NCBI GenBank assembly: GCA_030655145.1
Contig: JAURWD010000203.1
Span: 1 to 33,650, forward strand
Reading direction: 5' to 3'
Length of the DNA stretch: 33,650 nucleotides
Source of the DNA: Ferruginibacter sp.
GTDB lineage: Bacteria; Bacteroidota; Bacteroidia; Chitinophagales; Chitinophagaceae
Shown here: in pieces, positions 4,160 through 22,087 of the stretch
Layout: each line of letters opens with the position of its first letter
How positions within the stretch are numbered: the stretch's first letter is position 1
The notes under the pieces: generated by a model
What the model saw: the letters and a program-made list of their open reading frames with translations, nothing else
Told to the model about the DNA's origin: nothing
Database searches by the model: none
Translations under genes and position numbers: made by a program

Positions 4160-4923
4160 TGGCCGATGAACTCATTGTTCTTTGCATCGCTGCATTTGCA
4201 GCCGGTTTTATTGATGCGATCGTCGGCGGCGGCGGACTTGTTCAAACCCCGGCTACCCTGGTGGTACTTCCACAGTACCCCGTTGCTACCTTACTCGGTA
4301 CTACGAAAATTCCTTCCTTTCTTGGAACAGCGATCGCCGCGATCCAGTATGCAAAACGGGTTCCCCTCAACCGCAAGTTATTACTGACGATGTGCAGCAT
4401 CGCCTTCGCCGCTGCCTATGCCGGTTCAAAAGTCGTTACCCTCGTCAGCAACAGCTTTATGAAACCCATCATATTTGGCGTACTCATTTTAGTTGCTCTC
4501 TACACTTACACCAAAAAAGATTTTGGCAATAATGCGCAAGTAAAACGAACTCCAAAACATGAACTGCTCATCGGTGCCGTATTCGCTTTATTGGTCGGCT
4601 TTTATGACGGCTTCATAGGTCCGGGTGCGGGAAGCTTTCTTGTATTGTTTTTTATTAGTTTGTTGGGCTTTGATTTTTTGCGTGCATCGGCCCATGCAAA
4701 GTTTGTCAACATGGCCACGAACGTGGGCTCCATCGTGTTCTTCAGCGGCAGCGGGCATGTCCTTTACCAGTATGCTTTACCCATGGCCGTGTGCAATTTT
4801 ACCGGCGCCTTTTTCGGGGCGAGGCTTGCCATCCTCAAAGGCAATGCATTCATCCGGATTTTTTTTCTCATTGTTGTGATCGGCACCATCATTCGCTTTG
4901 GCTATGTTATTTTTTTCAAATGA
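4159..4923 (+). CDS. TSUP-family (TauE/SafE) membrane permease
   Basis: A hydrophobic protein of 254 residues with about eight predicted membrane segments. It has the repeated TSUP pattern: an N-terminal half with IDAIVGGGGLVQTPATL and LLGTTKIPSFLGT, and a second half with GFYDGFIGPGAGSFL and SAHAKFVNMATN. TSUP proteins move small sulfur- or carbon-containing organic anions such as sulfite, sulfoacetate or taurine; the substrate here is unknown. An ATG at 4159 is used; the frame also has a TTG at 4156 that would overlap the yggS stop further. It is coupled to yggS by a one-base overlap. No sulfur-metabolism gene is nearby to hint at substrate. Confidence 0.88.
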   Translation: MADELIVLCIAAFAAGFIDAIVGGGGLVQTPATLVVLPQYPVATLLGTTKIPSFLGTAIAAIQYAKRVPLNRKLLLTMCSIAFAAAYAGSKVVTLVSNSFMKPIIFGVLILVALYTYTKKDFGNNAQVKRTPKHELLIGAVFALLVGFYDGFIGPGAGSFLVLFFISLLGFDFLRASAHAKFVNMATNVGSIVFFSGSGHVLYQYALPMAVCNFTGAFFGARLAILKGNAFIRIFFLIVVIGTIIRFGYVIFFK

Positions 4924-5074: not shown

Positions 5075-5929
5075 ATGCACTCCACGTTCGAAGCAGAAAA
5101 GAACAAAAAAGCTTTTACGTACACCGCTCTTATTTGCGGCGTTATGTTGCTGCTTGCTTTTTTTATTACCTGGCCGATCCTTGCGCCAACTGCGCCTGTT
5201 GCCCAGGACTTGCTTGAGATCAACCTCGGTAATAATAATGAAGGCTACGGTGAAGAGCAGCCCTTGATCAAGGGTGAAATGGCTTCACGCCAGGAGCAAC
5301 CAGCACCGCAACCTCAGCAATCAGCAGCAAAAGCAGAACCAGCGAAAGACGTACAGGCAGAAGATGATGCAGAGGAAGATGCAGCCCCGGTAACGAAAGC
5401 TGTTAAATCAGTAAAACAACCGACAGAGATCGTAAAGCAGGCCGTTACAAAACCGGTGACAACTACTGCTACAGCCCCGGTAACTGCACCTGCTCCTAAA
5501 CCACAAAAACCGAAAGTCACCTATGCCGGTCCTGGTAATGGGTCGGGCAACGGCGCCACCGAAGATAACGGTTATAAATACCAGGGCAACAAACCCGGCG
5601 GCACGGGTGATGCAGGCGATCCGTCAGGTAAGCCTGATAGTTATGGTAGCACACCGGGAGGCAAGGTTGGCGGCTTGCGGGTGTCGAAAGGAGACCGGAC
5701 GATCAGGAACAATTATATTTTTATGGCTGATCTGCCAAAAGCGACGATCAATGCGATCATACGTGTTACACCAGACGGCAAAGGAAGTTATGTTAGCATG
5801 GACAAAGGCTCTACCAGTTCAGATTCCCGGTATGTAGATCGTATCCGTAGTTATTTACCAAACATTCAGTTCAGTAAATCGGATCATACCTCGCTGGTGA
5901 CCGTTCCATTTAATTTCAAAGTACAATAA
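5075..5929 (+). CDS. TonB-like energy transducer
   Basis: A 284-residue inner-membrane protein with a short cytoplasmic N-terminus, one membrane segment at about residues 14-34 (ending FFITWPILAP), a long Ala/Pro/Lys/Gln/Glu-rich periplasmic linker, a Gly/Asn-rich stretch, and a compact C-terminal region (last ~70 residues, with INAIIRVTPDGKGSYVSM and VPFNFKVQ) that fits the TonB C-terminal fold. It would couple an ExbB/ExbD proton channel to outer-membrane TonB-dependent receptors. No exbB, exbD or receptor gene is in the window, so it must use partners encoded elsewhere. The ATG at 5057 would add six residues; the promoter position argues for 5075. A strong terminator follows, separating it from folC. 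Confidence 0.78.
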   Translation: MHSTFEAEKNKKAFTYTALICGVMLLLAFFITWPILAPTAPVAQDLLEINLGNNNEGYGEEQPLIKGEMASRQEQPAPQPQQSAAKAEPAKDVQAEDDAEEDAAPVTKAVKSVKQPTEIVKQAVTKPVTTTATAPVTAPAPKPQKPKVTYAGPGNGSGNGATEDNGYKYQGNKPGGTGDAGDPSGKPDSYGSTPGGKVGGLRVSKGDRTIRNNYIFMADLPKATINAIIRVTPDGKGSYVSMDKGSTSSDSRYVDRIRSYLPNIQFSKSDHTSLVTVPFNFKVQ

Positions 5930-15660: not shown

Positions 15661-15812
15661 TTCAAGAAGAAAAACAACCGAATTCTTGAGGGTTATTCTT
15701 CCTGAGTTATTGTCTTTTTTCGATATCATTGTCTGGCAATCTACTTCCAGTCAGTCAATATTGCCAAAAACCAACATCCTGCTTAAATCTATTGTTGCCC
15801 ATCCTCCACGTA

Positions 15813-16616
15813 ATGAAAAAAATGCTAGAGCTTTTCCAGGAATATCCCGAGATATTTTATACAGTAATGGTTTTTTTGATCTGCATGTTTTGTTTTTTTA
15901 TCAACTACATGTCAGGTCGCTATAAAGCACGGCGATTGAAATTTTATAAGGATATTTTCGGGATGCGGAACTCGCATGAACGGGCTGTGTTAAAGGCGCA
16001 ACTTGACATGCAGGAATACACGTCCCAGATGATCTCGCGGGAAGTACACGACAACATCGGGCAAAATTTATCCCTGGCCAAACTGATCTTGAACATGCAG
16101 GCATTTGAAGACCCGGTAGAGTCGGGGGTGCAGGTAAATAATTCCATTGGGGTGATTCGCCTGGCTATGAAGGACCTGGTCCTGGTTTCGGAAGCCATCA
16201 ACTCCGATATAATGGTCCACAATGGACTTGTAAAAGCAGTCGAAGCGGAGGTAAGGAAATTAAATAATTCACAGGCCTATAAAATAACGTATGATATAAG
16301 TGGTTATGTTGTGTTCCTGGAAGGGCCTAATGAAATTTTGTTATATCGCATCGTACAGGAATCGTTGCAAAACATTATTAAACATGCCAATGCTACGTTG
16401 ATATCCATCCACCTGTATTATTACGCGACTTATTTTAAGTTAGCCATACAAGACAATGGAAATGGCTTTGCTTCGAGCGATATCAGTCGTGGCCTGGGGT
16501 TGATCAATATCCAGAACAGGTGTGCCGAACTTAAAGGGACCTGTTCTATCATCAGCAATCATGCAGGCACCCAACTTTACATAGAAATTCCTTCAAAACC
16601 ACCTGTTTATGCATAA
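15813..16616 (+). CDS. Small membrane-anchored sensor histidine kinase (NarL-type, HisKA_3)
   Basis: A 267-residue kinase with one membrane segment near residues 13-33 (FYTVMVFLICMFCFFINYMSG), no periplasmic sensor domain, then the dimerisation/phosphoacceptor helix with His79 in ISREVHDNIGQNLSLAKL, an HATPase with the N-box (QESLQNIIKHANAT), DNGNGF and RGLGLINIQNR G-boxes. It should phosphorylate the response regulator encoded next, which overlaps it by 8 bases. The upstream TTG at 15729 would extend the frame by 28 residues; the ATG at 15813 is likelier. The missing sensor domain suggests it senses the membrane, an intracellular cue, or a partner protein, perhaps the downstream membrane proteins. 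Confidence 0.88.
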   Translation: MKKMLELFQEYPEIFYTVMVFLICMFCFFINYMSGRYKARRLKFYKDIFGMRNSHERAVLKAQLDMQEYTSQMISREVHDNIGQNLSLAKLILNMQAFEDPVESGVQVNNSIGVIRLAMKDLVLVSEAINSDIMVHNGLVKAVEAEVRKLNNSQAYKITYDISGYVVFLEGPNEILLYRIVQESLQNIIKHANATLISIHLYYYATYFKLAIQDNGNGFASSDISRGLGLINIQNRCAELKGTCSIISNHAGTQLYIEIPSKPPVYA

Positions 16617-17259
16617 AACGATTATTCTTGCTGACGATCACATTTTACTTCGCGATGCTCTTGTCAATCTCATTAATACATTCCCGGAGTTTACGGTGAT
16701 CAAGGTTGCAGCCGATGGAACAGAAGTGGTAAAAGAGATACAGTCGGGGACAGTTCCGGACATGGTGGTGCTTGACCTGGCGATGCCTAAAATGGATGGT
16801 TTTGAAACAGCGGCCTGGCTCAAAATGAATCACCCACAAATAAGGATCGTGGTATTGACGATGTATGATTCGGAGATCGCCTTGATACGCTTGTTGCAAG
16901 TGGGCGTTAGAGCCTTTCTCAAAAAAGATATTCACCCAACAGATCTGAAGATCGCCCTGGTTTCAGTTGCCAGTGATGGTTATTTCTATTCTCATCAAAC
17001 TACTGCAAAACTTGGTTCCCTATTTGAAAAATCAAACGACAATCATCACTCAGTCGATAAATCACTCCTCACCGATAAAGAGATCAAATTCATCAAATAC
17101 GCCTGCAGTGAATTAACCTACAAGGAAATCGCGATGGAGATGAAACTTACACCCCGCATCATAGACAATTACCGGGATTCGCTTTTTGATAAACTGAACG
17201 TCAAGAGTAGGGTAGGCCTCGCTTTGTATGCCGTAAAAAACGGGGTAGTCTCTTTTTAG
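16609..17259 (+). CDS. NarL/FixJ-family response regulator
   Basis: A 216-residue two-domain transcription regulator. The receiver domain has the acidic pair Asp9/Asp10, phosphoacceptor Asp56 in VVLDLAMPKMDG, the conserved Thr in VLTMYDSE and Lys in FLKKDI. The C-terminal LuxR-type helix-turn-helix is LTDKEIKFIKYACSELTYK followed by EIAMEMKLTPRIIDNYRDSLFDKLNV. Its ATG lies inside the kinase gene (8-base overlap), so the pair is translationally coupled. Targets are unknown; the co-oriented membrane-protein genes 140 bases downstream are natural candidates. Confidence 0.93.
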   Translation: MHKTIILADDHILLRDALVNLINTFPEFTVIKVAADGTEVVKEIQSGTVPDMVVLDLAMPKMDGFETAAWLKMNHPQIRIVVLTMYDSEIALIRLLQVGVRAFLKKDIHPTDLKIALVSVASDGYFYSHQTTAKLGSLFEKSNDNHHSVDKSLLTDKEIKFIKYACSELTYKEIAMEMKLTPRIIDNYRDSLFDKLNVKSRVGLALYAVKNGVVSF

Positions 17260-17400: not shown

Positions 17401-18375
17401 ATGGAGATGAAGCACTTTCACAGGCTACACGAGGAGGGCGCTATTTCAACCGCCTCCTATGAAAAAATATTAGCCGCGGGCAACAGCCGGCAGCTCTCAG
17501 TACATTGGGAATTAAAGACCCTACTTTACCTCGGGGTTTTACTGTTGAGTTCTGGCCTTGGTATACTTGTTTATAAGAATATTGATACCATCGGCCACCA
17601 GGTAATTCTTTTGTTCCTCGCGTTGGTTTGTGCGGGCAGTTTCTATTATTGTAACCGGAATAAAAAACCCTTCTCTTTTGCGAAAGTGAGTTCACCCAAT
17701 GCATGGTTTGACTACATCCTTTTACTCGGCTGCTGCACCTTCATCACCTTTGTGGCTTACCTCCAGTTTCAATACCAGGTATTTGGCAATCGATACGGGC
17801 TGGCAACTTTTTTTCCTACCATTATACTTTTTTTTTCCGCCTATTACTTCGATCACCTGGGTGTGTTGAGTATGGCTGTCACCAGCTTCGCCGGCTGGCT
17901 GGGCCTCACGATCACACCACTTCATGTATTGGAAGCAAACGATTTTAATAACCTGCGCATCATTTATACGGGCCTGTTTCTTGGAAGTTTATTGTTGTTG
18001 GTGGCCTGGCTTACAGCGAAAAGAAAATTCAAGGCGCACTTTGAATTTACCTATACAAATTTCGGTTTGCACCTGCTGCTGATTTCCTGCCTGGCGGCAA
18101 TGTTTTATTATTCGGGTATCTCGCTGGTTTGGTTCCTGTTGATAGCAGGCATCTGTTATGTGTACTACCTGAAAGCCACCAGGGATAAATCATTTTACCT
18201 CTTGTTAGTCATCGCGTTTTACGCGTACATTTCTTTTAGTTATGTGTTTGTGCAATTGATTAGCCTGGGTGGCAGTGATGCGGGCATCTACCTCGGGTTC
18301 CTATACTTCATCGGCTCGGCAATTGGAATGTTGGTATTCCTTATCATGTCACACAAAAAATTGAAAGCTTTATGA
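17401..18375 (+). CDS. Multi-pass membrane protein, DUF2157-like
   Basis: A 324-residue protein with about nine hydrophobic segments. The cytoplasmic N-terminus (MKHFHRLHEEGAISTASYEKI) has the short helical LxxxGxI pattern that opens DUF2157 proteins. Function is unknown. It overlaps the next gene by 4 bases (ATGA), and the two have matching layouts, so they probably form a two-part membrane complex. The ATG at 17401 is used instead of the TTG at 17371; a TAGTTTTA stretch at 17376-17383 just before it resembles a -7 box. It follows the two-component pair by 140 bases with no terminator seen. Confidence 0.7.
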   Translation: MEMKHFHRLHEEGAISTASYEKILAAGNSRQLSVHWELKTLLYLGVLLLSSGLGILVYKNIDTIGHQVILLFLALVCAGSFYYCNRNKKPFSFAKVSSPNAWFDYILLLGCCTFITFVAYLQFQYQVFGNRYGLATFFPTIILFFSAYYFDHLGVLSMAVTSFAGWLGLTITPLHVLEANDFNNLRIIYTGLFLGSLLLLVAWLTAKRKFKAHFEFTYTNFGLHLLLISCLAAMFYYSGISLVWFLLIAGICYVYYLKATRDKSFYLLLVIAFYAYISFSYVFVQLISLGGSDAGIYLGFLYFIGSAIGMLVFLIMSHKKLKAL

Positions 18376-19523
18376 TCGCCTATAACAATGAATGGCTGAA
18401 GAATATCCAGGCGATTGAATCCGTAGACGCCGCGGGCAAAGAACGCCTGATTACACCCGAAGAGACCCAGGCCATCCGACAGAAATTAACGATAGGGTTT
18501 TACACGCCGAATACCTTTATTCGCATCGGACTCTTCCTGCTGACCCTGGTGATCTGCTTGTTTTCGTATGGATTTATCAGTCTTTTTGTAATGGCCTCAT
18601 TAGAAAAAGGTTTAGCAGCGATAGCCATTTTTTTTGGACTGGTTAGTTATGGTGCCCTGGAATACCTTATCCGAACCAAGCAGCATTTTAAGTCTGGCGG
18701 CGACGACGCCCTTTTATGGCTCGCAGCTTCTTTTATCTCAGGTGGACTCTACATATTGACCGACCCAACTCCTTTACAGAACTGTTTGCTGATTCTTGTA
18801 ATTGCCGTTGGCGCAACCTTGCGATTCACCGACAGGGTGATGACGGCAGTTGCTGTGCTATCTTTTTTTGGGGCGATCTTTTACCTTTTCGGTAGTTATG
18901 GAGCTTTTTTCAGGGCGATTCTACCGTTTGTATGTATGGTCGTGGCTTTGCTGCTTTATTTCGGCACAAAACGGCTTCGTCATGTGGAAGCTACAAAGCT
19001 TTATTCAGCTAATCTTGATGTAGTAGCTGTTCTTTCTCTTGTCATTTGTTACGTTGCCGGAAACTATTTTGTTGTAAGGGAATTAAGCATCGGTTTATTC
19101 CAGCTTAATTTAGTTGAAGGTGCGCCGCTGCCTTTTGGTTGGATCTTTTGGACCGTGACCTGCATGTTGCCACTCATCTACCTCGGTGTTGGAATTAAAC
19201 AAAAAGACCGGCTGTTGATCCGTACCGGTTTACTACTGGTTGCTGTTTCGCTCGTAACCTTGAAATATTATTTATTCATCGCTTCGGTTGAAGTCCTCAT
19301 TACGTTGTTGGGCTTGCTTTTGCTTGCGACGGCTTATGGCTTGATCAAATTCCTCTCAACACCAAGATTTGGGTTTGTGTACAAAGAAACCGAAGAAGAA
19401 GAGGGTGCTCAATTGGAATCACTGGTGATTGCTGAAACATTTTCACCCGTGGTTGCTCCGGCGGATCCTGCCCGGTTTGGCGGTGGAAATTTTGGAGGAG
19501 CCGGTTCCAGCGGGGAGTTTTAA
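18372..19523 (+). CDS. Multi-pass membrane protein, DUF2157/DUF4401-like, with a Gly-rich C-terminal tail
   Basis: A 383-residue protein. A soluble N-terminal ~50 residues (ending LTIGFYTPNTF) precede about ten hydrophobic segments, then an acidic linker (YKETEEEEG) and a tail ending FGGGNFGGAGSSGEF. Such glycine-rich endings also close many small TPM-domain (YgcG-like) exported proteins; that likeness is only in composition. It is coupled to the preceding gene by an ATGA overlap. No catalytic motif was recognised. The 1.4-kb repeat region begins within about 20 bases of its stop codon. Confidence 0.68.
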   Translation: MIAYNNEWLKNIQAIESVDAAGKERLITPEETQAIRQKLTIGFYTPNTFIRIGLFLLTLVICLFSYGFISLFVMASLEKGLAAIAIFFGLVSYGALEYLIRTKQHFKSGGDDALLWLAASFISGGLYILTDPTPLQNCLLILVIAVGATLRFTDRVMTAVAVLSFFGAIFYLFGSYGAFFRAILPFVCMVVALLLYFGTKRLRHVEATKLYSANLDVVAVLSLVICYVAGNYFVVRELSIGLFQLNLVEGAPLPFGWIFWTVTCMLPLIYLGVGIKQKDRLLIRTGLLLVAVSLVTLKYYLFIASVEVLITLLGLLLLATAYGLIKFLSTPRFGFVYKETEEEEGAQLESLVIAETFSPVVAPADPARFGGGNFGGAGSSGEF

Positions 19524-19544
19524 GCACCTGGGTTACCAAAAACG

Positions 19545-19686
19545 AAAAAGCCGTTAAAATGGTGATCCAATCCACTTTAACGACTCTCGAAAACTTGACA
19601 CTGAGAACCCTATAATAAGTTGTAAAAATCTTTTTGTTTCCCCGCTCTATCACTGCTTCATTCTTCATGTTTCCTAAATTATGCCA
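19545..19686 (-). repeat. Intergenic hairpin repeat, copy 1
   Basis: First of four copies of a ~142-base element, given in the orientation in which its hairpin precedes a T-tract. The hairpin arms lie at 19552-19562 and 19572-19582, with one substitution that leaves an A-C mismatch on plus RNA but a G-U pair on minus RNA. In minus orientation an open frame beginning MKNEAVIERGNKK reads through the unit without a stop into the DUF gene. Confidence 0.85.
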
Positions 19687-19811
19687 AATCTTAACTGATT
19701 GATTTTAAAGTAGTTAGGTGTTGTTCCCATGGCCATAATTCCAAAGTTGGGACTGGTATTCCATTTTTAAGGAAAAAAATAAGCTAGATGTTTTGTTGGG
19801 TTACCACAAAC

Positions 19812-19953
19812 AAAAAAGCCGTTAAAATGGTGATCCAATCCATCTTAACGACTCTCGAAAACTTAACACTGAGAACCCTATAATAAGTTGTAAAAATCTT
19901 TTTGTTTCCCTGCTCTATCGCTGCTTCATTCTTTATGTTCCTAAACTATGCCA
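19812..19953 (-). repeat. Intergenic hairpin repeat, copy 2
   Basis: Second copy, its hairpin 268 bases from that of copy 1. Arms are 19820-19830 and 19840-19850 with one substitution that again keeps pairing only on the minus strand. The frame that starts with ATG in copies 1 and 3 starts with ATA here. Downstream flank diverges from copies 1 and 3 beyond about 19953. Confidence 0.85.
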
Positions 19954-20295
19954 ATACCTTAAGATATTGATTAGTAGCCACTTAGGATTGTTGCAGGTAG
20001 GTATTGTTCCTAATAGCAGACGTGAATTCTATTTTTGAGACAATTTGAGAAGCTCAGGAGAGGAGCACAAAAAGAACATTCAAAACTACATCCCTTCAGT
20101 GTCGGTCTTTTACAAACGAAAAGCTGGGTGCGTTATGACTCGCCAGCTTGCTTCAAGTCGATAGGTTCAAAACTGACGCAATCTGCCTGGTGCATCAAGC
20201 GTATGCAATTATGATTAAGTTCAGTCCAGGTTGAACAATTCCGTTGGTCCATCATAAGACAAGGGAGAAAGTAAGTGTGCAAAGATTACGCAAAC

Positions 20296-20438
20296 AAAAA
20301 AGCCGTTAAAATGGTGATCCAATCCATTTTAACGACTCTCGAAAACTTAACACTGAAAACCCTATAATAAGTTGTAAAAATCTTTTTGTTCCCCCGCTCT
20401 ATCGCTGCTTCATTCTTCATGTTTCCTAAATTATGCCA
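20296..20438 (-). repeat. Intergenic hairpin repeat, copy 3
   Basis: Third copy, with a perfect 11-base hairpin (20304-20314 with 20324-20334). Together with ~110 bases of flank it matches copy 1 and its flank at roughly 96% by eye, so copies 3-4 are a duplicate of block 1-2. A 44-residue minus-strand frame spans 20286-20420. Confidence 0.85.
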
Positions 20439-20563
20439 AACATTAACTGATTGATTTTGAAGTAGTTAGATGTTGTTCCCGTGGCCATAATTCCAAAGTT
20501 GGGACTGGTATTCCATTTTTAAGTAAAAAAATAACCTAGATGTTTTGTTGGGTTACCACAAAC

Positions 20564-20703
20564 AAAAAAGCCGTTAAAATGGTGATCCAATCCATCTTAA
20601 CGACTCTCTAAAAATTAACACTGAGACCTTATAATTAGTTATAATAACCTTTTTTAATACCGCTTCATTCTCCTCTTTAATTTAAAGTTCCTAAATAATG
20701 CCA
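20564..20703 (-). repeat. Intergenic hairpin repeat, copy 4 (diverged)
   Basis: Fourth copy, its hairpin 268 bases from that of copy 3. The hairpin half is intact (arms 20572-20582 and 20592-20602, same substitution as copy 2), while the other half has several short deletions and substitutions. This uneven decay points to the hairpin as the constrained part. Confidence 0.8.
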
Positions 20704-20938
20704 ATCCATAAATGATTGGTTATCAATATCAAATTTGTTCAGCCAATTAAAACCGCTCTCTTTTCGAGAAATTATTTCCCTAAAGTGGAAGTTTTTCGAA
20801 TTTTGAAATATCATTTTGCCCTTGCTTTTAGTGTGCTGCCAGCATCCAGATTAGTCACATTTTTTTCACAAGACACGTAATCGCCCAAGGGCTACCTTCA
20901 ATTTCGCTACTTTTAAAACCTAAAACCACCCAGCCAGC

Positions 20939-22087
20939 ATGCACCAAGTTTATGTACGAAAACCATCCCTCCTGGTTTTCCTTCTGCTCTTATCATTTTC
21001 TTCCCTTTTTGCCCAAGGAAAATTTAACCTGAAATTTAAAAACTCCGCTGTTTTCGCCGGTATAGAGGTTGGATCGAAGGGCGTGAAAATGTCCGTACTG
21101 GAAATCGGTAAAAATGCGCAGAAGACCGGCGCGGTCAATCCCCTCAAAGATTCTTCAGTCAACACCGACTTCATCACGTTCTCCGCCTCAACGTTTCAAC
21201 AAACCCTGGATGCCTTGCATTACCTGTTCGAAATAGCTTTGAATCAATACAATATTCCGGCTGAACATATCTTTACCGCGGTTAGCAGCGGCGTAAAAAT
21301 GCAGGCCGACAAAGAAGCAAAAGCAGATTGGATCACGACGCTTTCAGATTCCTTTTCAGTAAGGGCCAATGATCCTGCCCGTCGCCTCTCCGTGATTGAC
21401 ATTAAGGAGGAAGCACGGTTAAGCCATCTCGGCATTGTTCCCGACGCACGTCGATACACCACATTCTTAATTGACATTGGAAGTGGTAACAGTAAGGGAG
21501 GATATTTCCCAAATGGAAATACGAAAGACCTGAAATTATTTCAACTCAACTGGGGTACAAAAAGTACCACCAACGCCACTGAAAAAAGATGCGAAGAAGA
21601 CAAGAGTCTTGCCAATTTTAACAAGCAACTTTATCGCGTTTTAGCCGGCGCAGCTAACACAGAAGTGGTATATGCTGTAAATGAAAGTGGCGCCTACGCG
21701 ATGAGTGACTACATAGCTTTTAGCGGAGGCATCAGCTGGTCAGTAGCTACTTTATTATATCCAGAATTAATTGACAATGCGGTTGTGCCGGTTACTTATC
21801 CCGAAGTGGAACGCTTGTACGAAATGTTGTTCTCACGCTACAATTCTTTGTCGCCGGATGCACTGGTAAAAAGCATCGCAGATAAATCTTTGGACAAAGT
21901 GATGATCGGTAAAGAAGTAAAAAGGGTGCACCAGGTATTTGATCAGCGTTCTTTGCTGGCAGGCACGGGTTTGTTGTTGAAGATCATGCGCCAGTTTGAA
22001 GGCATCTATGAGAAGAAACAATTTTACCTCGTAAAGAATGGGCAGGTGGGTTGGATCTCGGCGTACGTAGATGAACAAGTAAAATAA
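20939..22087 (+). CDS. Exported Ppx/GppA-like (ASKHA-fold) protein of unknown function
   Basis: A 382-residue protein with a clear signal peptide (LLVFLLLLSFSSLFAQ, cleavage near residue 26). The mature part has ASKHA phosphate-loop patterns: FAGIEVGSKGVKMSVLEIG near the start, a mid-chain KEEARLSHLGI that recalls the EEAR block of exopolyphosphatases, FLIDIGSGNSKGGYF as the second phosphate loop, and AFSGGISWSVATLL where adenosine-motif glycines fall. Known Ppx/GppA enzymes are cytoplasmic and hydrolyse polyphosphate or pppGpp; an exported version would act where ATP is scarce, so substrate and activity are open. It lies 41 bases before the coiled-coil gene on the same strand and probably is cotranscribed with it. 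Fold assignment is motif reading only. Confidence 0.6.
   Translation: MHQVYVRKPSLLVFLLLLSFSSLFAQGKFNLKFKNSAVFAGIEVGSKGVKMSVLEIGKNAQKTGAVNPLKDSSVNTDFITFSASTFQQTLDALHYLFEIALNQYNIPAEHIFTAVSSGVKMQADKEAKADWITTLSDSFSVRANDPARRLSVIDIKEEARLSHLGIVPDARRYTTFLIDIGSGNSKGGYFPNGNTKDLKLFQLNWGTKSTTNATEKRCEEDKSLANFNKQLYRVLAGAANTEVVYAVNESGAYAMSDYIAFSGGISWSVATLLYPELIDNAVVPVTYPEVERLYEMLFSRYNSLSPDALVKSIADKSLDKVMIGKEVKRVHQVFDQRSLLAGTGLLLKIMRQFEGIYEKKQFYLVKNGQVGWISAYVDEQVK

Follow-up and report, generated by a model that had tools for sequence, protein, structure and literature searches.

The window analysed here, the whole stretch of 33,650 nucleotides from a Ferruginibacter sp. genome (designated G000), contains four tandem copies of a repeat, all on the minus strand and spaced by 268, 484 and 268 bases. 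Matches of a covariance model to the array were detected at 19540-19652, 19808-19920, 20292-20404 and 20560-20671 (all on the minus strand, E ≤ 5.1e-22). The array faces a convergent gene, and each copy (c1 to c4) is accompanied by putative promoter parts, as follows.

18372..19523 (+): gene convergent with the array; a homologue (44% identity) lies in the same place in another genome of the genus, G070
19540..19660 (-): predicted sRNA copy 1; model match 19540-19652, 136.9 bits; start predicted near 19660 from the box
19546-19588 (-): terminator hairpin of copy 1 and U-tract, from the fold
19671..19687 (-): -24/-12 type box of copy 1, TTGGCATAATTTAGGAA
19692..19704 (-): IHF-like site of copy 1, AATCAATCAGTTA, no mismatch
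19739..19773 (-): putative enhancer dyads of copy 1; 19759-19773 matches at 7 of 10 positions and 19739-19753 at 8 of 10; a 15-bp-spaced pair scores equally
19808..19927 (-): predicted sRNA copy 2; 142 bits; start predicted
19938..19954 (-): -24/-12 type box of copy 2
19960..19972 (-): IHF-like site of copy 2, no mismatch
20007..20041 (-): putative enhancer dyads of copy 2, weak (6 and 7 of 10)
20292..20412 (-): predicted sRNA copy 3; 139.7 bits; start predicted
20423..20439 (-): -24/-12 type box of copy 3
20444..20456 (-): IHF-like site of copy 3, no mismatch
20491..20525 (-): putative enhancer dyads of copy 3 (7 and 8 of 10); a 15-bp-spaced pair scores equally
20560..20677 (-): predicted sRNA copy 4, a probable separate paralogue; 124.6 bits; start predicted
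20688..20704 (-): -24/-12 type box of copy 4
20709..20721 (-): IHF-like site of copy 4, one mismatch
20776..20808 (-): putative enhancer dyads of copy 4; 20794-20808 at 8 of 10 and 20776-20790 at 9 of 10, spacing 18

Upstream of the neighbour genes of the array, adjacent genes at 15729-17259 of the window encode a histidine kinase (HATPase_c) and, by eye, a response regulator.

The analysis confirmed the number and spacing of the copies given in a preliminary description of this DNA, which had also proposed a duplicated two-copy block of about 96% identity. The two blocks were 96% identical over their first 300 bases. In a 752-base register, 40-base windows were 90-100% identical from 19540 to about 19820 and dropped thereafter; the blocks are alike throughout copy 1 and in the terminator portion of copy 2, beyond which the similarity is lost. 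The cores of c1, c2 and c3 were mutually 94-95% identical, and the core of copy 4 shared 75-79% identity with each of them and with two copies elsewhere in the genome (on contigs C143 and C93). The preliminary description regarded copy 4 as decayed outside its hairpin half. However, copy 4 retains the RNA core and terminator, the box, the IHF-like site (with one mismatch) and a pair of dyads, 18 bp apart, that match at 9 and 8 of 10 positions; because all of these parts are kept, we read it from its sequence as a separate, earlier-diverged paralogue. Further, the functional unit is about 235 bases long, from enhancer to terminator, and not about 142 bases as first described. The description had rejected a CRISPR array and an insertion sequence, and we agree on both. 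The repeat units exceed 100 bases at spacings of 268, 484 and 268, and short repeats with regular spacers were not found. A MITE or IS-derived repeat was set aside as well, since terminal inverted repeats are absent; three inverted pairs occur in 19000-21500, and none flanks a unit or lies at its ends.

Read along the minus strand, every array copy closes with a hairpin of 17-18 bp and then a U-rich tract, as is typical of intrinsic terminators. The preliminary description proposed looking for other genomic copies and running a covariance-model search. The former revealed three more copies in the same genome, one each on contigs C93, C143 and C114, so that it holds seven including the four of the array. 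Six of these had fold z-scores between -2.3 and -3.3; the decayed C114 copy has no TGGCAY box and does not form the hairpin. A model built from the seven, with which 150 of 986 candidates were scored, recovered those seven and, at E up to 1, no others, and a DNA comparison with 58 relatives, 35 of them from the same genus, detected no copy. Matches of covariance model R1 were obtained in five other genomes among the 93 of the genus (own included), and a second model added one copy in G100. The genus count omits G034, which has a model match without the rest of the RNA. Thus, the family comprises 14 copies in five of the 93 genomes, seven in G000, one in G070 and two each in G025, G002 and G100, and the covariance-model search contributed seven diverged copies in four of the 92 other genomes. 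In the model searches, scoring was confined to the top candidates of each genome, which makes absences soft, and the model E-values are rough.

Beyond the genus, 244 and 394 genomes drawn from the larger taxonomic family were searched, and absences there are likewise soft. Model matches in G034, G140 and G311 were rejected as they carry neither the TGGCAY box nor the UCAGUG block (by eye), and one-mismatch pattern matches in five other genomes of that family were rejected as a reversed control pattern matched seven. A pattern search of a genome-contig collection gave 12 matches, five of which were known carriers; the seven other contigs yielded no model match better than E 0.14. The exact pattern of the G000 type had no match in that collection, from which G000 itself is possibly absent. 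Viral contigs had no match to two exact patterns, and no match was found in phages or plasmids. When the window was compared with Rfam at the gathering threshold, there was no match, and the sole match among five loci at E up to 1 was a weak one to ctRNA_p42d (E 0.35).

Across the 14 copies, 94.9% of the hairpin positions were paired and six pairs were changed on both sides. None of 500 shuffles scored as high on any of five measures, and slid structures paired at 44-58%; the alignment, itself a product of the model, is biased towards the structure of the model. The second copy of G100 retains the loop UGGAUCACC, although much of its stem sequence has changed. The RNA also carries a conserved single-stranded block of UAUA, then GG, then UCAGUG, and its terminator loop, UGGAUCWCC, is conserved. 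This loop (window 19540-20671, minus strand) presumably resembles the 3' tail of 16S rRNA, and it is a possibility that it touches translation directly. The homologues elsewhere, the hairpin covariation and the shared promoter module support the reading of the repeats as a small-RNA family, which was one of three options left by the preliminary description. A second, a genome-wide repeat, held in so far as the copies are dispersed, but they appear to be so as paralogous genes. The third, a regulatory array for the flanking genes, was not borne out, as neighbours differ between loci, although a cis role is possible at some of them, a co-directional open frame lying downstream at six of 11. On balance, the likeliest reading of the four repeats is that of sibling genes encoding a small regulatory RNA.

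The gene at 18372..19523 matched no Pfam or NCBIfam family. Its homologue occurs in 23 of the 93 genus genomes, and the RNA adjoins it only in G000 and G070. Further, genes of 950 residues that are homologous to each other (60% identity) stand opposite one copy in G025 and one in G100, and homologous large genes (67%) with IgGFc-binding, PKD and CHU_C domains lie downstream of other copies in G025 and G002. Three locus pairs are thus syntenic between species, a pattern indicative of vertical inheritance of the family with patchy loss. By eye, the RNA end faces a convergent gene at five of 11 loci (the array, G070, G025a, G100a and C114).

All of the 14 copies except C114, hence 13, have the TGGCAY box, which lies outside the RNA model and precedes the TATA-GG block by 62-92 nt. 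The promoters analysed also numbered 14, namely those of the 13 model copies other than C114 and that of a second unit on contig C13 of G100. This unit was found by the box pattern and not by the RNA model, and is counted among the promoters and not among the RNA copies; it sits 274 bases on and has the same promoter parts with a different RNA body. At L053:8952-9440 it comprises dyads, an IHF-like site, a TTGGCAC box, CTTATATAGG and a terminator-like hairpin, and judging from this layout the promoter type may drive further sRNAs. The -24 element has the canonical form, being TGGCAY in all 14 promoters (TGGCAC in nine, TGGCAT in five). The -12 element is mostly AGG and not TGC; its G is kept in 14 of 14, and the following C is present only in C143 and G025a (by eye). 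The sigma-54 consensus and examples of promoters that deviate from it are given in the available part of a published account (PMC12316311). Elsewhere, in three of the carrier genomes or species, a canonical-looking sigma-54 site, TTGGCACGTTTTT(C/G)GCA, precedes a gene for a 126-residue, probably exported protein, at L141:1213 (+) and, both on the reverse complement, at L142:1253 and L143:1278.

A site resembling the 13-base IHF site WATCAANNNNTTR, as given in the accessible text of PMC5963220, was present without mismatch in six of the 14 promoters and with at most one mismatch in 12 (either strand). At this threshold shuffled sequences gave a mean of 1.4 and a maximum of 6, and a relaxed one-strand scan also gave 12. 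An IHF-like site between the activator sites and the -24 box is the usual sigma-54 layout. The paired dyads, TTCCR-N5-YGGAA, scored a mean of 16.6 of 20 versus 12.5 in shuffles (sd 0.28, maximum 13.4, 200 shuffle sets) when the pair could lie anywhere within about 100 bases and at any spacing between 15 and 30. Eight promoters had a spacing of 20 and four one of 18 or 19, while in c1 and c3 spacings of 15 and 20 scored equally; among the shuffles never more than five shared one spacing. When spacing was held to 20 or 21, the best pair began 85 to 88 bases before the box in all 14 promoters. These shuffle tests are generous, because the consensus was read by eye from the same promoters on which it was then tested; the sole independent test is that of the regions upstream of the regulator genes described below. 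Pairs were weak (13-14 at spacing 20) in c2, c4, C143 and G070. When all examined loci were scanned, boxes with pairs of 13 or 14 arose by chance, mostly with at least three IHF mismatches, so that the weaker promoters carry weight only when taken together with the others. Further, the promoters of G000 were 35-50% identical to one another over 110 bases versus 25% for shuffled sequences; they are thus related, and part of their shared geometry reflects common descent.

The gene for sigma-54, rpoN, was detected in 87 of the 93 genus genomes. Among the carriers, G000 has two, and G070 and G100 have one each; it was not found in the draft genomes of G002 (96% complete) and G025 (65% complete). 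The second rpoN of G000 lies on contig C182 (match 4184-4660), with an enhancer-binding domain nearby (PF00158 match 5168-5668).

Each carrier encodes four to nine strong enhancer-binding domains. Among the genes examined, the best candidate for the activator, judged from sequence, is a group that we call group B, with a receiver and an AAA+ domain (Pfam), an assumed C-terminal HTH and a length of 449-450 residues. Group B was detected in 20 of the 93 genomes at E up to 1e-130, including all five carriers of the RNA and 15 genomes in which the RNA was not detected. The co-occurrence has P of about 3e-4 (0.0024 among more complete genomes), by a statistic that ignores kinship. In about 445 kb of scanned loci, dyad pairs scoring at least 17 were found outside the sRNA promoters only beside group B genes (G000 and G025). 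The best dyad upstream of 16 group B genes averaged 8.56 versus 7.06 in shuffles (sd 0.17); four of the 20 genes, with an unrecognised start, were left out of this set, in which G016 and G061 are nearly identical. It reached 9 or 10 of 10 in seven of the 16, and only 7 in the carrier G070. Upstream of 20 other enhancer-binding genes of the same five genomes, a set that omits six strong genes of G000 and G070, the best dyad averaged 6.9 and none reached 9.

Signalling genes were found beside group B in the carriers. In G000 and G025 these are PAS-rich hybrid kinases with receiver and Hpt domains, and in G002 a PAS-rich hybrid kinase with a sub-threshold Hpt match; G100 has a separate Hpt protein, and G070 a hybrid kinase without an Hpt match. 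On contig C58 of G000, a receiver-only gene upstream of group B (L091:352-490) has a dyad pair scoring 19 of 20 and a box-like GTGGCAT, and is possibly a further regulon member.

The genomes thus contain a conserved RNA with covariation, a terminator, a recurrent promoter module and a co-occurring regulator gene that has such dyads. We consider it probable, at roughly 0.74, that the repeats are minus-strand genes for sRNAs of about 120 nt, transcribed from a sigma-54 promoter that is activated by group B through the dyads with the help of an IHF/HU bend, and that the RNAs act in trans. Each repeat would encode one non-coding RNA of about 120 nt (about 110-150 nt across the family, from box positions). 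A signal would pass from the hybrid kinase through Hpt to group B, an NtrC-type response regulator, which would bind the paired dyads upstream of the -24 element. A protein of the IHF/HU type would bend the DNA between the dyads and the -24 element, allowing looping, and the sigma-54 promoter would then transcribe the sibling sRNAs up to the conserved hairpin and U-tract, where transcription would stop. The RNA would most likely act in trans on mRNAs, and several siblings, in tandem and dispersed, could set the dose and combine input. Transcription, control by sigma-54 and group B, action in trans and the choice of targets are inferred. A pairing scan of 14 local regions, including the start regions of group B and of neighbouring mRNAs, was unconvincing (one at p 0.035). 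Surface proteins are a reasonable first guess for the targets, and no more, because adhesin genes are neighbours and sigma-54 runs an adhesin operon in Flavobacterium psychrophilum.

Other readings of the repeats were weighed. Seven copies in gene-free gaps of one genome, each typically a strong hairpin with A and T tracts, might suggest a dispersed intergenic repeat or a bidirectional terminator element without RNA function, spread by recombination or transposition. However, homologues adjoin the same neighbour genes in the three species pairs, the hairpin covaries and the promoter module recurs, and the absence of inverted pairs at the flanks of a unit also argues against it; we regard this as quite unlikely. 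A family of genes for small proteins or type I toxins, such as one defined by the MDWITILTAF frame, appears very improbable. Copies 1 and 3 contain frames of 63 and 44 codons, and four others a short MDWIT frame, but copy 4 and G100a contain no frame of at least 25 codons, copy 2 has only an antisense frame, and elsewhere frames and their ends differ. Variation also tracks base pairing, and the small-protein reading was set aside as the frames are not common to the copies.

The RNA could alternatively be a cis-acting leader or attenuator for downstream genes such as those for secreted adhesins. At six of 11 loci a co-directional open frame follows 86 to 545 nt downstream (by eye). At three of these loci (244, 434 and 545 nt) it encodes a very large protein, the two of these that were scanned having IgGFc-binding, PKD and CHU_C domains, and sigma-54 drives the adhesin operon of F. 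psychrophilum according to the available part of the report (PMC9723704). We nevertheless hold a leader to be unlikely, given that the array is among the five loci that face a convergent gene, that the genes after the RNA differ between loci and that the terminator hairpin is conserved. It is fairly unlikely, in our estimate, that the RNA and enhancer are as described but that another enhancer-binding activator, or a sigma factor other than sigma-54, is at work. The many enhancer-binding domains per carrier, six genes of which fall outside the examined set, the deviation at -12 and the failure to find rpoN in carriers G002 and G025 speak for this possibility. In contrast, strong upstream dyads occurred, among the genes examined, only at group B, and the position of the IHF-like site fits the usual sigma-54 arrangement. 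The trans-acting sRNAs under sigma-54 and group B thus remain our preferred reading. A more tentative extension, possible but on balance doubtful, is that a switch like that of Qrr arose separately in Bacteroidota, in which a PAS hybrid kinase and Hpt relay would feed an autoregulating sigma-54 activator, and sibling sRNAs would retune genes for surface adhesins or social behaviour.

To our knowledge, few regulatory sRNA circuits are known in Bacteroidota. Sigma-54 (SM4) promoters are active in this phylum, including that of the remFG-sprCDBF adhesin operon of F. psychrophilum, and the transcriptome of this species contains many sRNAs; in the available part of that report, no multicopy sRNA family under SM4 promoters, such as the present one would be, is mentioned (PMC9723704). 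The best-ranked matches in full-text literature, a search with most subscription papers outside its scope, included no such family from Bacteroidota, which hints that the family may be new to the literature. Listeria LhrC, as described in the accessible text, is a multicopy sRNA that is tied to a two-component system and regulates an adhesin (PMC4132741). The present family would share the first two of these properties, its link to a two-component system being predicted. LhrC differs from it in host and promoter type.

A design of this kind is most familiar from quorum sensing in Vibrio. The Qrr1-5 sRNAs of Vibrio are governed by the LuxU-LuxO phosphorelay and sigma-54, according to the available text (PMC2680268). 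As in that system, there are several sibling sRNAs per genome (here seven copies in G000, six with a folding terminator hairpin), promoters of the sigma-54 type with distant activator sites (here predicted from sequence) and a response regulator of the NtrC type that is accompanied by kinase and Hpt modules (here group B and its neighbours). Unlike Qrr, which we take to be among the Rfam models, the present RNA has no Rfam match, and homology to Qrr in sequence or structure was not found. Qrr also represses mRNAs in an Hfq-dependent manner, for which the local pairing scan gave no convincing counterpart here. Further, group B scored 343.5 bits on the LuxO equivalog model, of which the cut-off is 800, and the present RNA occurs in another phylum, with four copies in one tandem array. 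Thus, the plan of the predicted circuit resembles that of LuxU-LuxO-Qrr, whereas the RNA is unrelated and neither it nor the regulator belongs to those families. As promoter, enhancer, activator and signalling relay are all predicted, the circuit can be tested gene by gene. If it proves true, sibling sRNAs behind a sigma-54 phosphorelay would be a recurring design and not a peculiarity of Vibrio.
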